Source: Planctomycetia bacterium
GTDB lineage: Bacteria > Planctomycetota > Planctomycetia > Pirellulales > PNKZ01
Length of the DNA stretch: 64,000 nucleotides
Reading direction: 5' to 3'
Assembly (NCBI GenBank): GCA_021413845.1
Contig: JAIOPP010000142.1
Span: 1-64,000, forward strand
Shown: piece after piece, positions 50,141 to 63,500 of the stretch
How positions within the stretch are numbered: the stretch's first letter is position 1
Layout: the number at the start of each line of letters is the position of its first letter
Notes under the pieces: generated by a model
Seen by the model: only the letters and a program-made list of their open reading frames with translations
What the model was told of the DNA's origin: nothing
Database searches by the model: none
Position numbers and translations under genes: made by a program

Positions 50141-52075
50141 ATGTTAGGATTCGCCGCCGTGACTACCGCCGATAAGCCTGCCGCCGACGAAGGAAAATCG
50201 TTTGCCGAGACCGCGCTGAAGATGGGGGGCAAGAGCGACGACGAAGCCCGCCGCACCGGGGCGATCGACAAGGCCGACGACCAGGTCGAATCGCTCTTCG
50301 CGCCGCAATATCAGACGACGGCGAGCCCTGCCCATCGGGCCGTTTGGGATGAAGCCGGAGTGCCGATCGATTTGTTCGCGTTCGAGCCGGAGCCGACGCC
50401 GCCGCATGTGCAGAAGGTGATGGACGACTCGCTGGCCGTGGTGCGCAAGTTTAAGCAAAGCGGCACGCTGTTGAACGCCGAAGGAAAAGTGACCGACGAA
50501 GTGCTCGCGGCACTCGGGACCGCCGGTTATTGGGGCTTGCTCGTCGATCGTGAATTCGGCGGCAGCGGCGCCCCGTTTTCCGTGTTCGCGCCGTTTCTCT
50601 CGCGCATGGCGATGCTCGACCCGACGATCGCCGGAATGGCGAGCGTGCATGGTTGCATCGGCGCGGTCGATCCGGTGCGCACGTTCGGCAACGCCGAGCA
50701 GAAACGCCGCTACTTACCGCCCTTGGCGAGCGGTGCGAAGCTCTCCGGATTCGCTCTCACCGAGCCATGGGCCGGCAGCGACCTCACGGCGCTCCGAACG
50801 CGCGCGGTGCGCGAAGGAAACGAATTCGTCGTCAACGGTGAAAAGCTGTTCATCACGAACGTCGTACCGGGGCGAACGCTCGGGCTCGTCTGCCTCATCG
50901 AGAACAAACCGGCGGTGCTCGTCGTCGATCTGCCCACGGAAGAAAATGAGCATTTCCAGCTGAAGAAGTACGGACTCTACGCACTGAAGCACACTTACAA
51001 TCGCGGCATTATCTTCCGCAATTTCCGTGTGCCTGTCGCGAACTTGCTCACTCCGCCGCGCGGCGATGGATTGACGATCGCCTATCACGGCTTGAATCTC
51101 GGGCGGACGGCATTGTGTGCGACGGCGGCCGGCAGCATGCGCAATATGCTTGCCGAAATGTTGCCGTGGGCGAAGTTTCGGCGCACGTACGGCGAAGAGA
51201 TCGTCGAGCGCGAGTTGGTGCAGCGGCGCATCGGTCGGCTTGCGGGCCTGATCGTCGCGGCCGATGCGCTGACTGCCTGGTGCTCATCGCTCATCGACCA
51301 CGGCTATCGCGGCGAGATGGAATGCATCATCGCCAAGATCTTCGGGAGCGAGATGCAGAAGGAAGCCGCCATCGAACTACTGATGAAGACGCACGGCGGG
51401 CGCTCGTTCCTGCAAGGACACCTCTTCGGCGACAACGTGCATGAATATCTCGCCCCGTGCATCTACGAGGGAGAAGGTGAAATGCTCGGCATGGCGTTCT
51501 TTAAGTCGCTCGTGAAGCAACACGGCACGGAATACTTCGAGCCGATCGGCAAGACGCTCGTCGCGGCGAAGATCAAGAAGCCCGATCTTAAGAATCCGGC
51601 GCATCTATGGACCTTGCGCAAGCCGATGCTGCACTACGGCAAATGGATGCTCGGGCGGAAATTGCATAGCCGCAAAGCGTCGTTGCCGCCGATGCCCGAG
51701 GCGCTGCGACGCCATGCGGAATTCGCCATCGCGTTTCTTAACGGCTCGGCTTTGGAGATCAGCGGCGTGATGCGGAAGCATCAATTGGCTTTGGCGGATC
51801 GGCAGTGTCGAATGTCGGAAACATCGGCCCGCGTGCAAACGGCGATCGTGATGCTTTGCACGAGCCTGTACGCTGCGCGGCACACCGACGACATGGTGCG
51901 CTCGGCGGCCGATTGCGTTTGCCAAGATTTTGCGAGATCGCTGACCGGCAAGCGTGTGGAAGATCGTTACTTCCGCGTGGTAACGAAACTCGGCGAGCAA
52001 GTCGCCGCCGGCGGTTTCTCGCCGCTCGAAGGGACGCAGGCGGGCGAGATACTGATGGGATACAAAAACGAGTAA
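50141..52075 (+). CDS. Acyl-CoA dehydrogenase, long C-terminal form
   Basis: FAD-dependent acyl-CoA dehydrogenase, 644 residues, catalysing the first oxidation. GFALTEPWAGSDLTALRTRA, the NVVPGRTLGLVCL strand, and GRSFLQGHLFGDNVHEYLAP are typical; the catalytic base is probably the glutamate in CIYEGEGEMLG. The C-terminal extension of about 200 residues resembles the membrane-associated very-long-chain (VLCAD/ACAD9) group. The start ATG 50141 is not certain. It ends the operon; electron-transfer flavoprotein genes are not in the window. Confidence 0.88.
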   Translation: MLGFAAVTTADKPAADEGKSFAETALKMGGKSDDEARRTGAIDKADDQVESLFAPQYQTTASPAHRAVWDEAGVPIDLFAFEPEPTPPHVQKVMDDSLAVVRKFKQSGTLLNAEGKVTDEVLAALGTAGYWGLLVDREFGGSGAPFSVFAPFLSRMAMLDPTIAGMASVHGCIGAVDPVRTFGNAEQKRRYLPPLASGAKLSGFALTEPWAGSDLTALRTRAVREGNEFVVNGEKLFITNVVPGRTLGLVCLIENKPAVLVVDLPTEENEHFQLKKYGLYALKHTYNRGIIFRNFRVPVANLLTPPRGDGLTIAYHGLNLGRTALCATAAGSMRNMLAEMLPWAKFRRTYGEEIVERELVQRRIGRLAGLIVAADALTAWCSSLIDHGYRGEMECIIAKIFGSEMQKEAAIELLMKTHGGRSFLQGHLFGDNVHEYLAPCIYEGEGEMLGMAFFKSLVKQHGTEYFEPIGKTLVAAKIKKPDLKNPAHLWTLRKPMLHYGKWMLGRKLHSRKASLPPMPEALRRHAEFAIAFLNGSALEISGVMRKHQLALADRQCRMSETSARVQTAIVMLCTSLYAARHTDDMVRSAADCVCQDFARSLTGKRVEDRYFRVVTKLGEQVAAGGFSPLEGTQAGEILMGYKNE

Positions 52076-52148
52076 AATATTGTTGAGCGGCGAGTGCTGG
52101 AGTGTTTATATAGTTCTCAGGCCGATGTTCTAGCGCGAGAAACGTTCC

Positions 52149-52364
52149 ATGATTCGTCGAGTTCCCGACAGCCCTAAGCTTCCACCTATCGACGTGTCGG
52201 CGTATCGCGGTAAATGGATCGCGATCGATTCGAAAACGCACAAGGTTCTCGGGCATGGGGATTCCCCAGCATCGGCGACGAAGAAGCTTGCGCTGAAAAA
52301 TATCGAGCCGTTACTGTATTTCGTTTCCTCGTCCGATGCATACTTCGTCGGAAGCGGCGCATGA
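52149..52364 (+). CDS. Small DUF5678-like protein
   Basis: A 71-residue protein with YRGKWIAIDSKTHKVLGHG, matching the pattern of DUF5678 proteins (YxGKWVA...kV...H/G). No catalytic residues are evident. The stop overlaps the next start (ATGA at 52361-52364). Such small proteins often sit directly before a retropepsin-like gene, as here. Function is unknown. Confidence 0.6.
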   Translation: MIRRVPDSPKLPPIDVSAYRGKWIAIDSKTHKVLGHGDSPASATKKLALKNIEPLLYFVSSSDAYFVGSGA

Positions 52365-52759
52365 TTTTTCCGTACCTCGAAGTGGTACGCCACGGTGGAG
52401 TCCGGTCGCTGCCGATCATTCCGATCCGATTACACGGTCCGCTCAGACATGTCGATTTACTGGCGCTCGTGGATTCCGGCGCAGAGCAGAGCGTCGTCAA
52501 CTTTAAACTGATCGAATATCTAGGGCTCGCCGCCGAAGGGGCAGTCGTCGTTCAAATTATCGGAGTGGGCGGCAAGGAGAGTCGCGGCTACGTGATCGAC
52601 GTGGATCACCAACTCAGGAATTATCGCTGGCAAGCGCCGGTCGTATTCTCCGAAGCAATCGAAGCCCCGGTGATTCTCGGTCAGGCGGGATTCTTTGAGC
52701 ACTTCAACGTAACGTTTAAGCGGCGCTCGGCGTTGATGGACATTCGACGAACGAGATAG
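52361..52759 (+). CDS. Retropepsin-like aspartic protease
   Basis: A 132-residue protein starting ATG 52361 (MIFPYLEVVRHGGVRSLP). VDLLALVDSGAEQSVVN holds the D-S-G active-site motif with the hydrophobic residues of single-domain retroviral-type proteases. VILGQAGFFEHFNVTFKRR is the typical C-terminal ILG...F...F stretch. It should work as a dimer. No target or transmembrane region is visible. It is coupled to the small upstream gene. The frame continues upstream to 52214 but overlaps that gene. Confidence 0.7.
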   Translation: MIFPYLEVVRHGGVRSLPIIPIRLHGPLRHVDLLALVDSGAEQSVVNFKLIEYLGLAAEGAVVVQIIGVGGKESRGYVIDVDHQLRNYRWQAPVVFSEAIEAPVILGQAGFFEHFNVTFKRRSALMDIRRTR

Positions 52760-52796
52760 ATAGCCGGTGTTGCTCTCAGAAGCTCTTGCAGCCAAG

Positions 52797-52895
52797 TTAC
52801 CGGCTCATGCTCGCCGCCACGACCAGTGCCGAGACGCCCCACCACAGAGTCGCGGCGATCAATAAGCTTTTCATGATGAATAAATTGCGGGCCAT
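52797..52895 (-). CDS. 32-residue single-helix membrane peptide
   Basis: A short frame MARNLFIMKSLLIAATLWWG..., with one hydrophobic helix (LLIAATLWWGVSALVVAA) and a C-terminal MSR. GAGG lies six bases before ATG 52895 on the minus strand, which supports it being translated. It is not part of a larger recognised gene. A small membrane regulator or a spurious frame are both possible. Confidence 0.4.
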   Translation of the reverse strand: MARNLFIMKSLLIAATLWWGVSALVVAASMSR

Positions 52896-53095
52896 GGAAC
52901 ACCTCGGGGAGCTTTTGAGGATCGGCGTTCGAGGTTGCAACTGCCTCGTATCGCCATGAACTCTCAAGCGCGGGGGCGGGGCGAGTGTTACTTCGCGGCG
53001 CGAGGATTTTCGCGAAACCGCAAGCGTGGCGGGAGTGTTGAGCGGCACTGCGGTGCCAGGTGAGTAGCCGACCCCTGGCCCCCGACCCCTGCTCA

Positions 53096-54679
53096 CTACA
53101 GCGTCGGCCCGATGCTCCAGGGGGCGAATTCTTCTTCGCCGATGCCGTGTTGTTCGCTCTTGGTTTTTTTGCCGCCGGCGACTTCGAGAACGAGCTCGAA
53201 GATCTGCTTGCCCACTTCGGCGAGCGGCGTCCCCTGGCTCAAGACCACTCCGGCATCGAAGTCCATGTCGTCGATCATCCGCTCGTACATCGGTGTGTTC
53301 GTGGCGATCTTGATCGACGGCGTCGGCTTGCAGCCGAAGCAACTGCCCCGGCCGGTCGTGAAGGCAACGACGTTGCAACCGCCGGCGACGAGGCCCGTCA
53401 CACTTACGGGATCGAGGCCCGGCGTATCCATGAAGACGAACCCGCGGCTCTTGATTTGCTCGGCGTAAAGGACGACGTCGTTGAGCGCGGTCGAGCCGGC
53501 CTTCGCCATCGCACCGAGCGACTTTTCGTAGATGGTCGTCAGGCCTCCTTCTTTGTTGCCGGTCGAGGGATTGTTATCGAGCCGCGCGCCGAACATAGCC
53601 GCGTACTTCTCCCACCAGCGAATCCGCTCGACGAGTTTCTTGCCGACCTCGGGGGTGCGAGCCCGCTTCGTCAGCAAGTGTTCGGCGCCGTAAGTCTCCG
53701 AGGTTTCCGCAAGCACCGTCGTGCCTCCGCAAGCTACTAAGAGATCGCTCGCGATGCCGAGCGCCGGGTTGGCAGTGACGCCGGAGTTGCCGTCGGAGCC
53801 GCCGCAGTTGAGCCCGAGCACGATTTCGCTGGCCGGGATCGACTCGCGGCGCACATCGTTCACGCGCGGCAGCAACTCGTTGATCTGCCGCAATCCTTCG
53901 TCGATGGTCTTCTGCGTGCCGCCGAGTTCTTGCATGACGAGGACCGGCGTCTTCGTCTTCGAGCCGTTGTCGTTCTTCAAGCCGGAGATCTGCACAAGGC
54001 CGCGCGTATCGACTAAGTAAGGAAGCGAAGCGGTTTCGCAGCCGAGGCCGATCAACAAGTACGCGCCGATATTCGGATGATGGGCGAAGCCGGCGAGCGT
54101 GCGATTGAGTTGCTCGTGGTCGTCGCCGCCGAACTGCATGCCGCAGCCCCCTTTATGGACGAGCGGTAGCACGCCGTCGACATGAGGAAATTGCTTGAGC
54201 ACGTCTTTGTTGAATCGGGCCGCGATGTATTTACTGACCGAAGCCGAACAGTTCACGTTCGAGACGATGGCGAGATAGTTGCGCGTGCCGACACGGCCGT
54301 CAGGCCGACGATAGCCTGGGAAGGTGCGGTCGGTGATCGGCGTCGGATCGGCGGGGATCTCGGTCGAGTATTCGTACTGCCGCTCGAAGATCGTGGCCGT
54401 CAGGTTGTGCATGTGGACCCAATTGCCCGGCTCGATCGGCTGCGAGGCGAAGCCGATGGTTTCGCCGTAGCGCGTGACCGGTCCCCCTTTAGGGACGGCG
54501 GTCAACGCGATCTTATGACCCATCCGCACGGCACCATCGAGCACGACGGTCTTGCCGCCGGCAGTTGCTTTGTCGCCCGCAACGAGATTGCGTACGGCAA
54601 TGCAGACATTGTCGGCAGGGTGGAGTTGCAAGACATCGGGCACAGAGGCTGCGACGGCGGGCATAAAGGAATGTCTCAA
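53096..54679 (-). CDS. UxaA family hydratase (altronate dehydratase-like)
   Basis: Sugar-acid dehydratase family protein, 527 residues, with an N-terminal SAF-type domain (about 1-95, LQLHPADNVCIAVRNL) and a large UxaA catalytic part. PGYRRPDGRVGTRNYLAIVS, NCSASVSKYIAAR, HKGGCGMQFGG, GLNCGGSDGNSGVTANPALG and FTTGRGSCFGCKPTPSIKI are the conserved blocks; their cysteines probably bind an iron cofactor. The real substrate may be altronate, galactarate or another sugar acid. No other hexuronate gene is adjacent. Confidence 0.85.
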   Translation of the reverse strand: MRHSFMPAVAASVPDVLQLHPADNVCIAVRNLVAGDKATAGGKTVVLDGAVRMGHKIALTAVPKGGPVTRYGETIGFASQPIEPGNWVHMHNLTATIFERQYEYSTEIPADPTPITDRTFPGYRRPDGRVGTRNYLAIVSNVNCSASVSKYIAARFNKDVLKQFPHVDGVLPLVHKGGCGMQFGGDDHEQLNRTLAGFAHHPNIGAYLLIGLGCETASLPYLVDTRGLVQISGLKNDNGSKTKTPVLVMQELGGTQKTIDEGLRQINELLPRVNDVRRESIPASEIVLGLNCGGSDGNSGVTANPALGIASDLLVACGGTTVLAETSETYGAEHLLTKRARTPEVGKKLVERIRWWEKYAAMFGARLDNNPSTGNKEGGLTTIYEKSLGAMAKAGSTALNDVVLYAEQIKSRGFVFMDTPGLDPVSVTGLVAGGCNVVAFTTGRGSCFGCKPTPSIKIATNTPMYERMIDDMDFDAGVVLSQGTPLAEVGKQIFELVLEVAGGKKTKSEQHGIGEEEFAPWSIGPTL

Positions 54680-54996
54680 GTGCGAAAGGAATCGGGCGAT
54701 CGGCGGGGGTAGGCCGATCTTGGGTCCGGATCGGCTGCCGGCGGGAAACGCTACTTTTACCCTACCGCCGCTAGGCCGCGTCGTCTATCCCTGCCGCCTA
54801 GTAGCCGGCGGCGTTATCCCTTCGGCCTGTCGAGGGTTAGCTGCTTTGCCGCCGGTGACATTTCGGAATCGGAGTGCGAAATCGGAGCCGTGGTCGGGAA
54901 TCATTCGCTTGGCGACGACGTCTATAATAAGGCTGCAACGAAACGTGGTAGAATAGTCGATAGTATCGGCAGCGCTTCCGAACAGCCCTTTTCTCA
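54680..54996. other. Divergent intergenic region
   Basis: 317 bases between the UxaA-family gene (-) and the giant membrane protein (+). No gene is supported. A perfect TATAAT at 54923-54928 with a poor -35 is the only promoter candidate on +, about 62 bases before the start codon after the transcription start. The rest is GC-rich without clear repeats. Confidence 0.5.
54923..54928 (+). promoter_or_regulatory. Perfect -10 box before the giant membrane protein
   Basis: TATAAT at 54923-54928 matches the ideal -10 hexamer. No convincing -35 box is found 15-19 bases upstream (ATCATT at 54900 is the nearest). The predicted start is near 54935, about 62 bases before the GTG start. Confidence 0.4.
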
Positions 54997-57900
54997 GTGA
55001 GTGCGACGACGCGCATGGCAAGTGGTGCCGCAAAGCCTCGATCCGGTTCATCCGATGGTTCGCGCGGGGAAGCTTCTCGCGGGGGTGGCCCGCGCTCGGC
55101 CGGTCGGGTCATCGAATACCAAGCCTACATCGACGGCCAACTTCGCAAGACGCGGAGCCGTGTGAAATGGGTCGATCTGGGATCGAGCCTCACTCTGCTC
55201 GCCATCGGCGTGCTGGCCTATCTGCTCGTCGCTGCCGTGATCGATCATTGGGTCGTGCCGGGGGGCTTAGGATTCTCCGGACGCTTGCTGCTGTGCATCG
55301 GCTTGGTCGGCGGCGCGGCTTATCACTTGGTTGGTCGCTTTGCTCCTTTGCTGCTGCGCAAAGTAAATCCGGTCTACGCGGCCGAGGCGATCGAGCGCGG
55401 TCAGCCGATGAAGAACTCGCTGATTAACTTTCTGTTGCTACGGAAGCAGCCGAACCTCTCGTCGGAGTCGATGCTGGAGGCGATGAAGGAGCAAGCGGCC
55501 GTGCGACTCTCGGCCGTGCCGGCCGATGCTCCGGTCGACCGGACGGCGCTCATCCGCCTCGGCTACGTGTTGTGCGCGGTTCTAATCGCCGCCGTGGTTT
55601 ACGCTTTGGCCGGTCCGAAGGATGCGATTCGATCCGTGAATCGGGTCATCGCCCCTTGGGCCGATCTTGCGCCGTCGACACGCGTGAAGATCGTCGAACT
55701 GACGCCGGCCGACGTCGAACGGCGGCGCGATGAGGTCGTCGAAGTGAAAGTACGCACGAAGAACATGCGCGCCACGGATGAAGCCGTGGTCTTTTACTCG
55801 AACTCCGGGAAGCCGGAAGACGACATCGCCGTGCCGCTCCGATCGGATGACGTGCTGCATTGGTCGGCGACCATTCCCGGCGGCAGCGAAGGGCTTAAGC
55901 AAGACTTGTACTACTACGTTCGGCTCGGTGATACCGAATCGCCCCGCTATCGCATTCGCGTCGCCGCCACGCCGGTTATTACGGTCGGTCGCGTGCAGTA
56001 CGAGTATCCCGCTTACACGGGCTTGCCGCCGCGCATCGTCGAGCGCCAAGGAGATTTGAAAGGTTTGGAAGGGACGCGCGTCGTCCTTACGGCCGAGACG
56101 AACCAACAGATCCGTTCGGCGTTCGTGGCCTTCGATGCGGCGCGCAATCGCGATGTGGAATTGACGCCCGATGAAAACAAATTGAAAGCGACTGGAAGCT
56201 TCGAGCTGGCGCTGACGAAGGATCGGAAGCGGCCTGCACATACGTCGTATATGCTGCGGTTTGCGAATATCGACGGGCAAGAAAATCCGAAGCCGATCGA
56301 GCACAAGATCGACGTCACGGCCGATCAAGCTCCGGAAGTAAAAGTGATCGAGCCGACGAGCCCGGCCTCGCAAGAGTTGCAGGTGCCGCTCGGTGCGCCG
56401 TTGCGCATTACGCTGGCGGCGCGCGATCCCGACTTCAAGCTTGCCGACCTGGCCGTGGTCTTTGAGCGCGGGGGCGTACCGCTACGCGAAGAGCGCATGC
56501 TCGCGGAACCGCGCGACGGCGACTTCTCGAATACGGTCGTGTTCGATGCGGCGCGCTATGGTTTGAAGGTCGGCGATCGGGTGACCTTCCGCGGTCGCGC
56601 GAAGGATAACAAAGCGCCGCAGCCGAATATCGCGGAGACGGCGCGCTACACGATCGTCGTCGTTCAAGGCAACGGCGCGGCCGGCCAACCGCCGAAAGCC
56701 GGCGAGCAAGGGCAACCGAACCAGCAGCAGAACAATCAACCGCCTGGGAACCAACCTCAAGACCGGAAACCCCAACAAGGCAACGACCCGCAACAAGGGA
56801 AGCCTTCGGGTGACCAACCGCAGCCGCCGGCCGGCGACAACCGTGAAGGAAACCAGCAACCGAACGGAAAAGGCACGTCTCCGAACGGCCAGGGAAATCA
56901 AAAGGGCCGGCCGCAAAACGAAAATCGCCCTCCGGATCAACAGCCCGGCACCCAGCAGCCCAACGATCCGAAGTCCAATAGCCCGCAACCGAATCAGCAA
57001 CAGACCCGTGGCGGGCAAAAGGAAGATTCTCGCAACGGACAGCCGCAAGATGCGCCCCGGCCCGGCGAAGGGAAGCAAGACGCCGGCTCGAAGCCGGGAG
57101 AGAACGGCGGTGCTAAGAACGGGCAAGACGAGAAGCCGATCGATCCCGAAGTCGATCCCGGGAAGGCAATTCAAGAGCTTAAGGATTTCTTCGACAAGCA
57201 GGACGCCAAGGACGAAGCGCAGAACAAGAACGAGCCGGGAAAGCAGCCGAAAGACGAAGGGAAGCAAAACGGTTCGCCGGGAAGCGGCGATAAGAATGAG
57301 TCGGGAAATAAGCAACCTTCCGGCAAACAACCCGCTGCCGAATCTGCGAACAAAAAGCCCGACGACCGACAAGGGGCCGGCAAAGAACCCGGCATGAAGG
57401 AGGGCTCCGAAAAGGGAACCGAGAAAGGTTCGCAAAAGACGGACGACCCCAACGGCAAAGGTGGCAAGCCGGACCAAGAGAACGGCAAAGAAGGAAAGAA
57501 AAACGACGGCCCATCGCAACCCGGCGGACCCTCGGGCGCAGGAAAACAGTCGGGCGGCGACGAGGGGAAGCCCGGCGGCGATCAACAATCGGGCGGCAGC
57601 CCGAGCGGCAAGCAATCGGAACGGCCCGGCAGTCAGGCGGGCAGCCCCGGCGGCTCCGAGGGGATGCGCGCCGACGATAAGGCTCAAGGAGCCGCCGAAC
57701 GTCGTGAAGGGAAAAACGACGGCGGTCGCGAGGTGGAGCGCAAGCCGACCGATGGCAACGGCGGAGAGAAACCGGTAGCGAACGAGAGCCGCAAGCCCGG
57801 CGACACGACGGGTGCTAAGCCCGCGGATCGGAACGAGAGTCAACCCGCCGGCGAAAAGAACGGCTCGGAAGCTCCGATGCCGGGCACAGGTTCGAAACCG

Positions 57901-59169
57901 AACGGGGAAGGTAAGGAAGCACCGCCGAAAACAGGCACGGCGAACGAAGGTAATCCCACGCCGGATCGTGAAGGCAAGCAATCGGGCGGCGGCGATGGTG
58001 GTCAATCGGGAAGCGCATCGTCGAAGCCGGGCGAAAAGTCCGGCGCGAAAAAGAATGCGGAGAAGCCCGGCGAGAAGCCGGTCGGCGAACGTGAAGGGGA
58101 GAAGCCTTCGGCCAACAATGGTCAGCCGTCGGGCAATCAAAAAAATCCCGGCGATGTCGGCGGAAGCAATACGAAGAACGAAGGGACTCCTGAAGCGCAA
58201 GAAACGAACAAGCCTCGCGACAAGACCGGCGGCGCTGATGCCGGCAGTAAGGAAGAATCTCGCGGCGATCCCGGCAAGTCGCCGAGCGGTAGTAAACAAG
58301 AATCGGACGCGCAGGGCCAATCGAGCGGCGATCGTTCGGGCAACGGAGAAGAAGGGGGCGGAATGAAGTCGCCCAAGAAGGGGACCGGCTCGGCTGGCTC
58401 GAACACTCCCGGCGATCAAGGCTCCGGCGCAGCCGCTGAAGAGGGAGACTCCGTCACGGGGAACAAGCCGGGCGACAAGGCGCGCGGGCCGGCGCCTTCG
58501 GAAGGGAAGCAACCGGGAGGCAAACCTTCGGGCGAAAAGGGAGACGGAAATCAATCGCGAGCCGGCGGAGACCGATCGGGCGGTACGGGCCAACCCCCCG
58601 CAGATGCATCGAGAGGAGATCCTTCCGACGATCAAGCGAACCAGGGGGGCCGAGATGCGAAGCCCGGCGAACGCCCTCAGGACGGCGCCGCGCAAGGTGA
58701 CGGCGGGGGCGGAATTCCCAAAGGACCGAGCGGGGGCCGTTTCGGTCGGACGACCGAGCCTGGGGGCGATGCCGCGAATCTCGACTACACGAAGAAGGTG
58801 ACCGACCTGACGCTCGATCGCTTGAAGAATCAACTCGACAAGGGGCAAGTCGATCCGGAGTTGTTGAAGAAGTTCGGTTCGCGCGAGGCGCTCGATCAGT
58901 TCGCGCGGAAGTGGGACGAAATGCGCCGTGCGGCGCAACAGCCGGGCGCTCAAGGAGATGCGGCCCGTAAGCAATTCCAAGAGACGCTCAAAGGCCTCGG
59001 CTTGCAATCGCGGACGACGTCGCAGCAGGGGCGCCGCACGGGGGACGATGATTCGCGCGAACTACGTGGTTCGCGCCGAAGCGAGCCTCCGGCCAAGTTC
59101 GCCGATCAGTACCGCGCCTACACGACCGGCATCGGCCAAGCTCCTGCGGAACCGGCCAAAAAGCCGTAA
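54997..59169 (+). CDS. Giant membrane protein with long disordered region
   Basis: A 1390-residue protein. Two membrane helices lie at about 58-84 and 88-112 and a third at about 185-205. A beta-rich, probably extracytoplasmic domain follows (to about 555) with VQYEYPAYTGLPPRIV and IRVAATPVITVGR. Then come about 700 residues (557-1260) of G, P, Q, N, K, E, S and D, with no hydrophobic segment. The C-terminal end (1262-1390) is ordered and conserved-looking: LDYTKKVTDLTLDRLKNQL and FGSREALDQFARKWDEM. Similar planctomycete proteins exist with a DUF4175-like N-terminal part; their function is unknown to me. The start is GTG 54997; ATG 55015 is an alternative. Confidence 0.6.
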   Translation: MSATTRMASGAAKPRSGSSDGSRGEASRGGGPRSAGRVIEYQAYIDGQLRKTRSRVKWVDLGSSLTLLAIGVLAYLLVAAVIDHWVVPGGLGFSGRLLLCIGLVGGAAYHLVGRFAPLLLRKVNPVYAAEAIERGQPMKNSLINFLLLRKQPNLSSESMLEAMKEQAAVRLSAVPADAPVDRTALIRLGYVLCAVLIAAVVYALAGPKDAIRSVNRVIAPWADLAPSTRVKIVELTPADVERRRDEVVEVKVRTKNMRATDEAVVFYSNSGKPEDDIAVPLRSDDVLHWSATIPGGSEGLKQDLYYYVRLGDTESPRYRIRVAATPVITVGRVQYEYPAYTGLPPRIVERQGDLKGLEGTRVVLTAETNQQIRSAFVAFDAARNRDVELTPDENKLKATGSFELALTKDRKRPAHTSYMLRFANIDGQENPKPIEHKIDVTADQAPEVKVIEPTSPASQELQVPLGAPLRITLAARDPDFKLADLAVVFERGGVPLREERMLAEPRDGDFSNTVVFDAARYGLKVGDRVTFRGRAKDNKAPQPNIAETARYTIVVVQGNGAAGQPPKAGEQGQPNQQQNNQPPGNQPQDRKPQQGNDPQQGKPSGDQPQPPAGDNREGNQQPNGKGTSPNGQGNQKGRPQNENRPPDQQPGTQQPNDPKSNSPQPNQQQTRGGQKEDSRNGQPQDAPRPGEGKQDAGSKPGENGGAKNGQDEKPIDPEVDPGKAIQELKDFFDKQDAKDEAQNKNEPGKQPKDEGKQNGSPGSGDKNESGNKQPSGKQPAAESANKKPDDRQGAGKEPGMKEGSEKGTEKGSQKTDDPNGKGGKPDQENGKEGKKNDGPSQPGGPSGAGKQSGGDEGKPGGDQQSGGSPSGKQSERPGSQAGSPGGSEGMRADDKAQGAAERREGKNDGGREVERKPTDGNGGEKPVANESRKPGDTTGAKPADRNESQPAGEKNGSEAPMPGTGSKPNGEGKEAPPKTGTANEGNPTPDREGKQSGGGDGGQSGSASSKPGEKSGAKKNAEKPGEKPVGEREGEKPSANNGQPSGNQKNPGDVGGSNTKNEGTPEAQETNKPRDKTGGADAGSKEESRGDPGKSPSGSKQESDAQGQSSGDRSGNGEEGGGMKSPKKGTGSAGSNTPGDQGSGAAAEEGDSVTGNKPGDKARGPAPSEGKQPGGKPSGEKGDGNQSRAGGDRSGGTGQPPADASRGDPSDDQANQGGRDAKPGERPQDGAAQGDGGGGIPKGPSGGRFGRTTEPGGDAANLDYTKKVTDLTLDRLKNQLDKGQVDPELLKKFGSREALDQFARKWDEMRRAAQQPGAQGDAARKQFQETLKGLGLQSRTTSQQGRRTGDDDSRELRGSRRSEPPAKFADQYRAYTTGIGQAPAEPAKKP

Positions 59170-59289
59170 AGCGGTCGTACGGCGGCTCTGCATGTCTATT
59201 CGCAGCAGACTTCTTGAGTTCGGCTAAAAAACAGCCGTCAACGGCGATTTTATAGCCGTTCATTTTCAATTCCTTAATCTTGTTTCTTG

Positions 59290-59314
59290 CAAAACGTACG
59301 GTATTAACGTTTTG
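59290..59314. repeat. Perfect 8-bp inverted repeat before the prepilin gene
   Basis: CAAAACGT (59290-59297) and ACGTTTTG (59307-59314) are perfect mirror images around 9 bases, 18 bases upstream of a sigma-54-type promoter. It might be an activator or repressor site. Confidence 0.5.
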
Positions 59315-59331
59315 TAAGTATTTTTACGGAC

Positions 59332-59349
59332 TGGCTTGTCCTTTGCATT
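59332..59349 (+). promoter_or_regulatory. Sigma-54-type promoter for the prepilin gene
   Basis: TGGCTTGTCCTTTGCATT has GG at 59333-59334 and GC at 59345-59346, separated by exactly ten bases, and matches the TGGCACG-N4-TTGCA consensus at 10 of 12 fixed positions. Predicted start near 59358. The gene begins at 59407 after AGGAG at 59394-59398. Confidence 0.55.
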
Positions 59350-59406
59350 GGCGGCGCGGCATTACGTTTTTTTAATGTCTGCATCTAATGAGCAGGAGTA
59401 GTTTCC

Positions 59407-60246
59407 ATGTCTGAATCGAAGTCCGTACGTGGGCACAAGCGGAGCGGGTTTACGCTGATCGAACTCGTGGTGGTCATCATCATTCTCGCCACGATCGCCG
59501 GCTTCGTCATCCCGCAGGTCGGCATGATCGGCCGCTCGTCCGACATGGCGGCGACGGCGAAAACGCAATCGGACGTCGCCTCGAATATCCAACTCTTCTT
59601 CACGCTACAGAAGCGCTACCCGCAAGGGCTAGATTCGTTGCTCGACACCACGGGAACGCTTTATTCCGCGAACACGACCAATGGGGATACGCAGACGCAC
59701 GGGCTCCCTTACTCGGGCGCGGACGATACCCGTCTGCAGGCCCAACTCGCCAAAGCCACGTTTACCGTCGCGGATAAGACCTACGCTCGCTCGCTGACGC
59801 GCGCCGGCTTCGATTGGGTCCACGACCATACCGTTCCGACTGCGCCCGCCACGACGAACTCCAACAACTCCGGCGACGTGTTTCGCGGCCTGATAGCCGA
59901 TGCCAACGGCACCGGCAACACGGCACCGACGACGATCGACGTCGCCGAGGTCACGGGGGCGGCTCTGTTGCTGAAACTGGTTCCCCAGGGTTTGAAAACC
60001 GGAGAGCGCGTCGTCGCGTTCGGCGTGGGGCCGAGGAACACGGCGATCAGCAAAACATTGACGAACTCGCCGACTTATCCCGGCGCCGACGGCAAATACT
60101 ACGGCCGCTACATCGCCTACTTCAAGGTTTACGCATCGGGAGAACGAGCGGTCATGATCGGCACTTCCGATAGCTACGGTCGGACGCCGGACTACACGCA
60201 ACAGCAGTTCAACGAATCGCTGCCCGACGGTGGTCGCCAAGGCTAA
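59407..60246 (+). CDS. Type II secretion/type IV-like prepilin
   Basis: A 279-residue protein with a class III (prepilin) signal: the cleavage motif SGFTLIELVVVIIILATIAG begins near residue 16, where the G-F peptidase site is expected and E at position +5 is present. After the hydrophobic helix it is a soluble, beta-rich region with repeats of T, N and G. This is a pseudopilin or major-type pilin of the planctomycete kind. AGGAG at 59394-59398 is eight bases before the ATG. No pilus assembly genes are adjacent. The terminator after it makes it a single-gene transcript. Confidence 0.85.
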   Translation: MSESKSVRGHKRSGFTLIELVVVIIILATIAGFVIPQVGMIGRSSDMAATAKTQSDVASNIQLFFTLQKRYPQGLDSLLDTTGTLYSANTTNGDTQTHGLPYSGADDTRLQAQLAKATFTVADKTYARSLTRAGFDWVHDHTVPTAPATTNSNNSGDVFRGLIADANGTGNTAPTTIDVAEVTGAALLLKLVPQGLKTGERVVAFGVGPRNTAISKTLTNSPTYPGADGKYYGRYIAYFKVYASGERAVMIGTSDSYGRTPDYTQQQFNESLPDGGRQG

Positions 60247-60563
60247 TAGTTGAGGCTTCCGAAGCGGCTTTTGAGTCGTCATCGAACGGAGCGGGGGAGC
60301 CGAGTGGTTCCTTCGCTCCGTTTTTTCGTTGAAAAGCTGCAGGCCGTCTTCTTCGGCTTTCCCCCCTGTGTGCGACATAGCGCAGCCCGCATTGCGATTA
60401 AAATCGAAAATCTTCCCGGTTGGCGCTTTCCGTCGCCGCGCCGAACGCTTATTTTCTCGGAACGAAGATACCTCTAAAGGGGTGTTCTCGACTGGGCCGT
60501 TTCGGTGGCTTTCTCAGCGGCATCGGGCGGGATTCAACCAAGAGCCTACAGCGAGAGATTTCC
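60247..60563. other. Intergenic region after the prepilin gene
   Basis: 317 bases without a supported gene. It begins with an intrinsic terminator (60285-60326). A CGATT-AA-AATCG palindrome lies at 60395-60406. No promoter with good boxes was found for the following autotransporter-type gene. Confidence 0.5.
60285..60326 (+). terminator. Intrinsic terminator of the prepilin transcript
   Basis: AACGGAGCG (60285-60293) pairs perfectly with CGCTCCGTT (60314-60322). A T-run of six follows (60321-60326). The loop is 20 bases and can pair further inside. Confidence 0.85.
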
Positions 60564-63500
60564 ATGGCAGCGGGTTTGCCAGGGGGGCTTATAGCGCGAA
60601 GCCGCCTCGTCACTACCGGGTGTCGAGTTGCGATGCTCGCGTTCGTCGTCGGCATTACGTTTTCCGGCTCCGGTGCATTGCGAGCTCAAACGTCGACTTG
60701 GCTGAAGACGACCAGCGGCAACTGGTCGCTCGCGGACAATTGGAGCACGTTGCCGATCGGCGGACCTACGGCGCTGCTGCTTTTCAACGGCAGCGGCGCG
60801 CAGGCTTATATCGCGACGAACGACTTGGCCGATCCGTTCTTCATGAACCAGATCGTCCTCAACAGCACTTCGAGCGGCACGCCGACGATCGCCGGCGCGC
60901 AATTGCGATTCGTCGGCAGCAATGCGCAGATCAAGCAAGACGGCGGCGGCGCATTTATTTTTACGGCGCCGATCAAATTCGACCTCCCTCTGACGCTCGC
61001 CGGCTCAGGCGCCGGCTACGTGACCTTCAACGGTGCGCTGAGCGGCATGGGGGGCATCATCAAGTCCGGCACGAGTACGTTCGTCTTCGGTTCGCCGGCG
61101 GCCGATACGTTGTCGAGCAATACCTTCGTCGGCGGGCTCACGATCGCCGACGGCACGATTCGCTTCGATAACACACTCGACACCGGTCCGACGGCGCTGC
61201 GCTCGAATCGCATCACGTTCACTTCCGGCGCGGGAAGCCTGCGTTTCGGCGGGCCCTCGGCAACCACGCCGACGGAACTGCGGATCGGAGAAATCTCCGG
61301 CGCGGCCGGCCTCGTGCTCGCGCGCACCACGGCGGTCAATGAGAACGCCGGCTTGAACGTCGTCATCACGACTTTGGGCGACGCCTCCTACGGCGGCACG
61401 TTTGACAATACGGGAACCGGCGCGGGCCTCGCCACGACGCTCAAGATTCGCGGCGTCGGCAATCAGACGTTTTCCAATTCGGTCGCCGACACTTTCAAGA
61501 TCAACGGCGACCTCGAAACCTTTCACGGTGCTACGACGACGCTTGCCAACTTCGCGTCGACCGGCACCGCAAGCGCAGGGAAAATCATCTTGAGCGGCGG
61601 CACCTTCGTGCTCGATAACGTCGCCAGAAACGACAACGACCGCATTCGCACCTCAGGCACCGTCGATATGGCCGGCGGCGGAACTTTTCGCTTGTTGGGC
61701 AATGCTTCGGGCACCGCCGAAGTCTCCGGCCGACTTGAGCTCGGAGATAACAATATGATCGCCCGAGGGGGAGCTTTGAAAATCGAGATCGTGCATATCG
61801 CGACGTCGTCTCCCACGACCCTCACGTTCAGCGTCTTCGAAAGAGATTCCTCGTCCAGCCCTCGTTCGACGGTCGACTTTGCGGCGGTCAATGCATCGGG
61901 CACGGCCATTCCGCTCGGCGGAGGTGGAACGAATCCGCGCATCATCCTTACGACCGGCGTTCGTCTGACGACGACCAATTTGCTGTTTTCACGCTCGAAC
62001 TCTTCGGCAAGCAACAACACTTACGGCTATGCGACCGTCAACGGCACCGACTTCGCCACTTATGGTTCTAACGGCGTCGTAGCGGCCGGTTTTACGACGT
62101 GGAGCGGAACGGCGAATTCGTCGACGAATTTCAATCTCTCGGTGAATGGAACCACCGGAACCTCTAGTTCGACATTTTCCATCGGCTCTCTGAAGCTTAC
62201 ACCCGCTTCCGGCAGCATCGCGCTCGACATCAACGGCTCCGGAAATCTGCAAACGAACGGGATCTTGCTCGCAGGAAGCAATAACGCCGCGATCACGTCT
62301 TCGGGCGGCGGGGGCTGGGTCGGTTTCGGGATGCGCTTCGCTCATGTGCAGTCGGCCGTGCTGACGATCGGCGCTTCGATCGGCAGCGATAACAACCCGC
62401 TCGTGAAGGCCGGCGGGGGAACGCTCTACCTCTCGAATACCTCGAACGTCAACTCGACGGCGACCCTCACGATCAACGACGGGGTCGTGCGGGCATCGTC
62501 GACGACTCTCCCCACCGGCACGATCGAGTTCCGCGGCGGCGTCCTTGAAGTCACCGGCGGGGGGACGTTCAATCGCGCGCTCGGTACCACTGCCAACACC
62601 CTGAACTGGCAGAACGGCACCTTCGATCGAGGGAGCGGCGGCTTCGCAGCCTGGGGTGCGGCCGTGACGATCGATCTGAAAAATCTCGGCGCCGATCAGC
62701 TCTCTTGGCGCGAGACGAACTTCGTCGGCGAGGGCTATGCGCTGATCTTCGGCTCGAAAACCGCCGATGCGCGAGTCTCGCTCTTAGACGACTTGAACCT
62801 TTCCGAATCCTCGGTTCCATCGCCGGAAACTTACAATGCTCGCGAGATTCAAATCGTCGACAATCCGAATTCGCCGACCGATTTCGCGAGGCTTTCCGGC
62901 CAGGTCTCGGGAGCGATTACCGACGATCTCCTGAAGACCGGTGCGGGAATCTTGGAACTAACCAATACCAACACTTACTTAGGCGGCACCATCATCGCCG
63001 AAGGATCGCTGCTCGTAGCGAACTCCGCCGGCTTGGGAGATCTTAATGCCGCTTATGTATTGCTAGGCGCGAGAAGCGGTTCGGCCGATGTCGCACTACT
63101 GACCAGTAGCACGTCGACTGCCATTACGATCAAACGGGACATTCTCGTTCAGTCCGGCGGCACGGGCAGTGCCATGCTCGGCAACACGATCGCGCTCGAC
63201 GCCGTGTCGGCATCGAACGCAGTATTTAGCGGCAATATCCTCGTCGGACTCCAAGGAGATTCGCTCGCCAAGAGTCTCAAGTTCACAGCCGTCGCCGGCA
63301 CCACGGTCACGTTTTCAGGATCGATCACGACGCATTCCGGTTACACGGGAACCGTGTCGATGCAAAAGGTCGGCGGCGGCGATGTGCTGCTCAGCGGTGC
63401 GACTTCCTACTCCGGAGCGACTACGGTTTCCGCCGGCAAACTCATCATCGGCACCGGCGGGCTACTCGCGGGGAGCGGCGGAGTTTCCGTTGCCGCCGGC

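Follow-up and report, generated by a model that had tools for sequence, protein, structure and literature searches.

A predicted divergent DUF4175-like membrane protein of the Planctomycetia with a long disordered tract between two conserved ends

Gene clusters of the Bat ('Bacteroides aerotolerance') type, in which MoxR, DUF58, BatA and GATase1-like genes stand together, are widespread and of unsettled function. A periplasmic complex has been proposed for the Bat proteins, and the sections of the study cited here report that loss of Bat proteins from Leptospira biflexa affected neither growth nor shape nor survival of oxidative stress (PMC3557215). Among proteins annotated as DUF4175, AdvA of Acinetobacter baumannii is presented, in the cited part of the source, as a cell-division protein (PMC7481262), and parts of another source deal with the disordered spacers of periplasmic force transducers (PMC12204202). 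Here we describe a gene on the forward strand of a 64,000-nucleotide stretch of DNA from a Planctomycetia bacterium (contig JAIOPP010000142.1 of GenBank assembly GCA_021413845.1, positions 1 to 64,000; this whole stretch is termed the window), the product of which is related to proteins from Bat-type clusters and can be likened to AdvA by annotation only, with DUF4175 and predicted transmembrane (TM) helices as the shared points. No description of this protein was found in the open-access papers searched.

The reading that we favor, and that we regard as having an even chance of being correct, is that of a Bat-associated, DUF4175-like inner-membrane protein in which the middle part seen in its paralogs has been replaced by a disordered tether, and which serves as a scaffold or tether. 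An earlier note, drawn up from the DNA letters, had described a 1390-residue membrane protein with a disordered tract of some 700 residues, and the open frame and a tract of 692 residues confirm that description; the relation to DUF4175 and the Bat clusters, the immunoglobulin (Ig)-like domains, the helix within the tract and the class-wide spread go beyond it. The protein consists of the following parts, the ordered stretch before the tract being termed the N-domain and the one after it the C-domain:

54997..59169, + strand: whole open reading frame (ORF), 1390 amino acids (open frame of 1390 codons; orthologs)
54997..55611, + strand: N-terminal tail and three membrane helices, residues 35-86, 93-120 and 183-205 (AlphaFold model, hydropathy, charge distribution)
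55612..56670, + strand: three tandem Ig-like beta-sandwich domains, approximately residues 228-323, 326-438 and 442-556 (model, fold matches)
56671..58746, + strand: disordered low-complexity tract, 692 residues, 559-1250 (composition; 45 orthologs preserve its length and make-up)
57136..57207, + strand: conserved short helix-like motif within the tract, residues 714-737 (profile against shuffles)
58747..59166, + strand: conserved C-terminal helical domain, residues 1251-1390 (alignment, model, class search)
59086..59136, + strand: motif of the C-terminal tail, residues 1364-1380, which in form resembles the tails of MoxR-cluster paralogs (shuffle test)

Comparison of the N-domain with DUF4175 (PF13779) yielded a match over residues 311-465 with 17.2 bits (18.1 in a second search), the cut-off being 27.3 bits. 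The aligned part comprises only profile positions ~177-381 of 825 and corresponds to the Ig-like ectodomain region. A match at E<=0.1 was obtained for 22 of 32 aligned members (best 8.4e-9), and an ortholog from another family (L101) lies above the cut-off with 29.5 bits. Because its own score stays below the curated cut-off, the window protein is called 'DUF4175-like' and not a formal member; judged by sequence similarity it is probably a divergent relative of that family, from which it differs furthermore by its disordered middle.

The genome from which the window stems (7.08 Mb in 167 contigs) encodes two paralogs, on C77 and C6, each being part of a cluster that includes MoxR- and DUF58-like genes. 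Together with 18 loci from relatives these form a set of 20 paralog loci, 18 of which contain MoxR and 19 DUF58, and the N-domain is homologous to proteins encoded within such MoxR-DUF58-BatA clusters. On the other hand, MoxR does not occur at any of 51 ortholog loci and DUF58 is found at two, in both cases more than 8 kb away. In a tree of 72 N-domains, 52 orthologs fall on one side of a branch with support 100/99; the positions of the paralogs L157, L035, L142 and L141 are unsure because of their long branches, while the split between orthologs and paralogs is fully supported. The separate clade differs from its MoxR-cluster kin in the middle of the protein: all 20 paralogs carry a more hydrophobic, helix-like middle (14-26% hydrophobic residues) with a longest low-hydrophobic run of 57-280 residues, whereas this run extends over 471-1122 residues in the orthologs (n=48). 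As the two ranges do not overlap, a long disordered tract sets the clade apart from its MoxR-cluster kin, which are more ordered at this place.

The AlphaFold model of the N-domain (557 residues) shows the three membrane helices and has a mean predicted local distance difference test (pLDDT) score of 89.3 and a predicted template modeling (pTM) score of 0.61; hydropathy analysis located hydrophobic windows inside residues 58-104 and 182-211. Matches in the PDB (Foldseek, VIA) are generic Ig-like folds, which say nothing about the function of the N-domain. Lysine and arginine amount to 12 residues in positions 1-57, none in 81-91 and nine in 113-181. Applied to three membrane helices, the positive-inside rule would place the N-terminus in the cytoplasm and everything after residue 205, including the Ig-like domains and the tract, outside of it. 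Of the earlier suggestion of a flexible spacer crossing the periplasm, the location on the periplasmic side fits this topology; a crossing of the periplasm would go beyond it.

The bounds of the tract are those of the gap between the two homology-defined ends. Glycine, proline, glutamine, asparagine, lysine and glutamate account for 67.9% of its residues and V/I/L/M/F/W/Y/C for 2.5%; the net charge is close to zero (100 K+R vs. 107 D+E). With a mean hydropathy of 0.293 at a boundary value of 0.417 the tract lies far into the disordered side of the charge-hydropathy plot. A frame free of stop codons over this length was reached in 0 of 2000 codon-position shuffles and in 0 of 2000 plain shuffles, and the frame is kept in two same-genus relatives. 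The ratio of non-synonymous to synonymous differences (pN/pS) determined with these relatives was 0.57-0.61 for the tract, 0.35-0.39 for the N-domain and 0.27-0.29 for the C-domain, which indicates a constraint on the tract at the protein level that is weaker than that on the ends. A tandem array was looked for in the window tract and not found.

Among the 48 orthologs that are not cut by a contig end, 45 have all three parts (N-domain, tract and C-domain) joined in a single open frame, the tract measuring 436-994 residues (median 658) with 0.9-5.3% hydrophobic residues. Half of the protein is low-complexity sequence in a maintained frame and is followed by an ordered C-terminal domain that the homologs share, all as the earlier note had it. 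Of the two observations that would have refuted that note, absence of the C-domain from homologs is contradicted by these 45 orthologs, and an assembly artefact, or equally a frame accident, can be rejected, as the frame is kept in these orthologs, also in single-contig genomes, and pN/pS is below 1. In some draft genomes contigs end within the tract (L062-L064): the tract breaks assemblies and is not made by them.

Several peculiarities of the tract were seen in passing. In the draft loci L063 and L064 it turns into short tandem repeats (GAGQQ, SGGEK) at which the contig stops, and it looks as if the tract grew by repeat expansion. In L116 and L117 from family f23 it holds repeated helix-like units (LQSGD..R..A..KLD.LK) and not plain low-complexity sequence. 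The window tract is also overlaid by an antisense ORF of 841 amino acids (56482-59007, - strand). Since the longest antisense frame at this place can be anything between 80 and 931 codons long depending on the ortholog, this ORF is taken as a by-product of the codon make-up of the tract and not as a gene.

Within the tract a short motif of the form DPGxAFExILxHxxxQ recurs in the order to which the window belongs, 66-373 residues past the N-domain. The pattern was picked after viewing the sequences, and the scoring profile omitted the sequence tested, plus its near relatives for four sets. On this basis the motif beat all 200 shuffles of the respective tract in 27 out of the 32 sequences from the order, the window motif scoring 30.0 at a shuffle maximum of 8.6. 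Among the remaining sequences it is weak in L046 (1/200) and L049 (3/200) and was not found in L050 when the profile was compared with shuffles of that tract; for L063 and L064 the test was unfair, the 130 residues next to the contig end having been removed. In L058 the top-scoring site is out of register. Between the same-genus proteins the motif region aligns without gaps at 46-61% identity, in contrast to 36-50% and many gaps in the surrounding tract, and it resembles a docking helix.

The C-domain is modeled as all-helical (residues 1258-1282, 1287-1293, 1296-1314, 1318-1333 and 1366-1379) with a mean pLDDT of 67.2 that rises to ~85-88 over core residues 1270-1330. In a sample of 148 genomes of the class it was detected in 115, with one match each, including all 35 genomes from the order of the window; the cut-offs were E<=0.001 for the C-domain and E<=1e-10 for the N-domain, which was detected in 147 of the 148. 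Among the complete orthologs, the C-domain was missed in three, L113, L116 and L117. Counts for the C-domain vary with the settings of the search, six further loci being without a match under default filters and 45 of 51 being matched when the filters are switched off. The tail motif, trained on those 13 of the 20 paralogs whose tails matched a pattern recognized by eye, was recovered in 34 of 49 orthologs at <=5 of 500 shuffles, while 15 failed; among 258 control tails a single one reached a score of 36.4, and it probably belongs to the paralog L035, which had stayed in the control set.

These observations bear on an alternative that views the tract as entropic brush or hydrated filler on the membrane surface, its bulk and charge being what matters and not the reach toward a partner. 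Length and sequence of the tract drift rapidly at steady composition, identity between the tracts of same-genus proteins amounting to 36-50% with many gaps, and the net charge of the tract is negative in 43 of the 45 orthologs, all of which would suit a brush. A filler would not be expected to contain a conserved helix motif, nor to end in a C-domain that is more conserved than the N-domain between same-genus proteins (72-79% vs. 67-71% identity), and we regard the brush as unlikely, although it fares best among the alternatives.

With regard to distribution, an ortholog is present in all 40 relatives studied (the genome of the window counted), and the protein is near-universal in the class. 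In a sample of 199 genomes from the phylum the N-domain profile matched in 154. Outside the class the scores are much lower and several copies often occur, and for these reasons orthologs and paralogs cannot be separated there.

In one family the gene neighborhood may provide a further link to Bat-type proteins. Of 36 genomes from family f22, 18 have a GATase1-like gene whose end directly precedes the ortholog (counted from coordinates), and a BatA-like gene precedes the GATase1-like gene in all 12 of these upstream stretches that were read, BatA (PF07584) and GATase1_like (PF07090) scoring above the Pfam cut-offs in L105 and L111. Seven other f22 loci that were read (L101-L104, L106, L108 and L109) have neither a BatA-like nor a GATase1-like gene adjacent. 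Within the order of the window, genome G029 carries a GATase1-like gene ~3.9 kb upstream (locus L060). In the genome of the window itself the GATase1-like ortholog occupies C74:45225-47513 (346 bits; second-best match 89), where it adjoins BatA- and DUF58-like genes and has no DUF4175-like neighbor. As this DUF58-BatA-GATase1 set is without a DUF4175-like gene, the window protein may be its missing member. Co-occurrence of the protein with the GATase1-like gene is uninformative because both are near-universal (147 of 148 class genomes in either case).

Other loci point in a different direction. The commonest conserved neighbor is nadB, which at 20 of the 51 loci, spread over several families, follows the ortholog at a distance of 34-593 bp (L044, L046-L048, L051-L053, L056-L059, L061, L068, L113-L116, L118-L120); in part of the order it is followed by GldA-, GldFG- and DUF4340-like genes (Pfam), all of these names being our reading of the sequences. 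It is therefore conceivable that the protein works together with this string of nadB and Gld-like ABC transporter genes and not with Bat-type proteins. NadB makes a precursor of nicotinamide adenine dinucleotide, and no obvious link connects it to the protein; neither nadB nor the Gld-like string is present at the window locus, and in half of the f22 genomes it is a Bat-type gene that is adjacent instead. On this evidence a partnership with the nadB string appears improbable. In several loci of the order, e.g., at L052:12271-13446, an LpxK gene (PF02606) is located divergently just upstream of the ortholog.

A role as force transducer of the TonB/TolA kind, in which a membrane motor pulls the tract and the C-domain acts on a partner in the outer membrane, is very unlikely. 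The plan of membrane anchor, extended spacer and end domain is the same, and other membrane-tethered types with disordered spacers, among them vWA force transducers, have been proposed for Planctomycetes in the parts of the source cited here (PMC12204202). The spacer given there for the vWA force transducers comprises ~100 residues, and that of the window protein is several times longer; moreover, three TM helices and Ig-like domains stand against a single TM helix, and the end domain is modeled as all-helical. Formation of a condensate near the membrane, the other role suggested in the earlier note and superficially in line with a low-complexity tract rich in G, P, Q and N, is unsupported and is the least likely of all, as the tract is nearly devoid of aromatic residues (F 0.4%, Y and W absent, as is C), contains 4% R and swings among Q-, G-, S-, E- and K-rich make-up in the orthologs.

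For the favored Bat-associated scaffold or tether, the Ig-like stack would dock BatA/GATase1-like partners at the membrane, and the flexible tract would let the helix motif and the C-domain reach and hold a partner at a far or variable distance, candidates being other members of the complex, peptidoglycan or the outer membrane. The protein would accordingly act as a scaffold or tether and not as an enzyme. A number of observations weigh against this proposal. No Bat gene is adjacent at the window locus, the 18 f22 genomes with adjacency represent one family and thus perhaps few events, and the frequent proximity of nadB, a metabolic gene, is not explained by it. The match to DUF4175 falls short of the cut-off, the C-domain is modeled with moderate confidence and gave no match in the PDB at E<=0.001, which does not establish a new fold, and the C-domain went undetected in 33 of the 148 class genomes at its cut-off. 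Outside the order, only 10 of 20 loci pass the motif test, the other 10 failing at 0/200. Finally, genome G081 lacks the protein and keeps the GATase1-like gene, while G166 lacks the GATase1-like gene and keeps the protein; these unlinked losses speak, if anything, against a strict dependence.

A bolder version, which we consider doubtful, is that of a class-wide envelope tether: a Bat-type complex would have left the MoxR cluster, and a disordered arm several hundred residues long, with docking helix and end domain, would hold partners across an inter-membrane space that is both wide and variable. A conserved envelope tether of planctomycetes would be of wider interest because their envelope is unusual and because, according to the cited parts of a study on Planctopirus limnophila, this organism can do without several of the peptidoglycan and division genes that are essential elsewhere; the same source lists 108 essential proteins of unknown function that are specific to the phylum (PMC10632474). 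Irrespective of this version, a member separated from MoxR that carries a helix motif and an end domain offers testable handles on the Bat-type clusters.

As to the gene itself, ATG 55015 (1384 amino acids) is the likely start rather than GTG 54997, since orthologs share a conserved N-terminus M-A-S/T-G; a clear ribosome-binding site was seen for neither codon. A promoter scan found none, a search of positions 52000-61000 against Rfam produced no match above the gathering score, and comparison of the whole protein with Pfam and NCBIfam at E<=1 gave nothing useful. A match to shikimate dehydrogenase (E 0.037, 13.1 of 196 bits) and weak PDB sequence matches were put down to chance, and PHROGs yielded a single match with E 0.51. 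The surroundings of the gene in the window feature the following:

52214-52759, + strand: small retropepsin-like aspartyl protease (PF13650, 24.4 bits, cut-off 24.3)
59407-60246, + strand: prepilin-like protein (N_methyl), the next gene downstream
60420 onward, + strand: long ORF of at least 1193 amino acids that continues beyond the window

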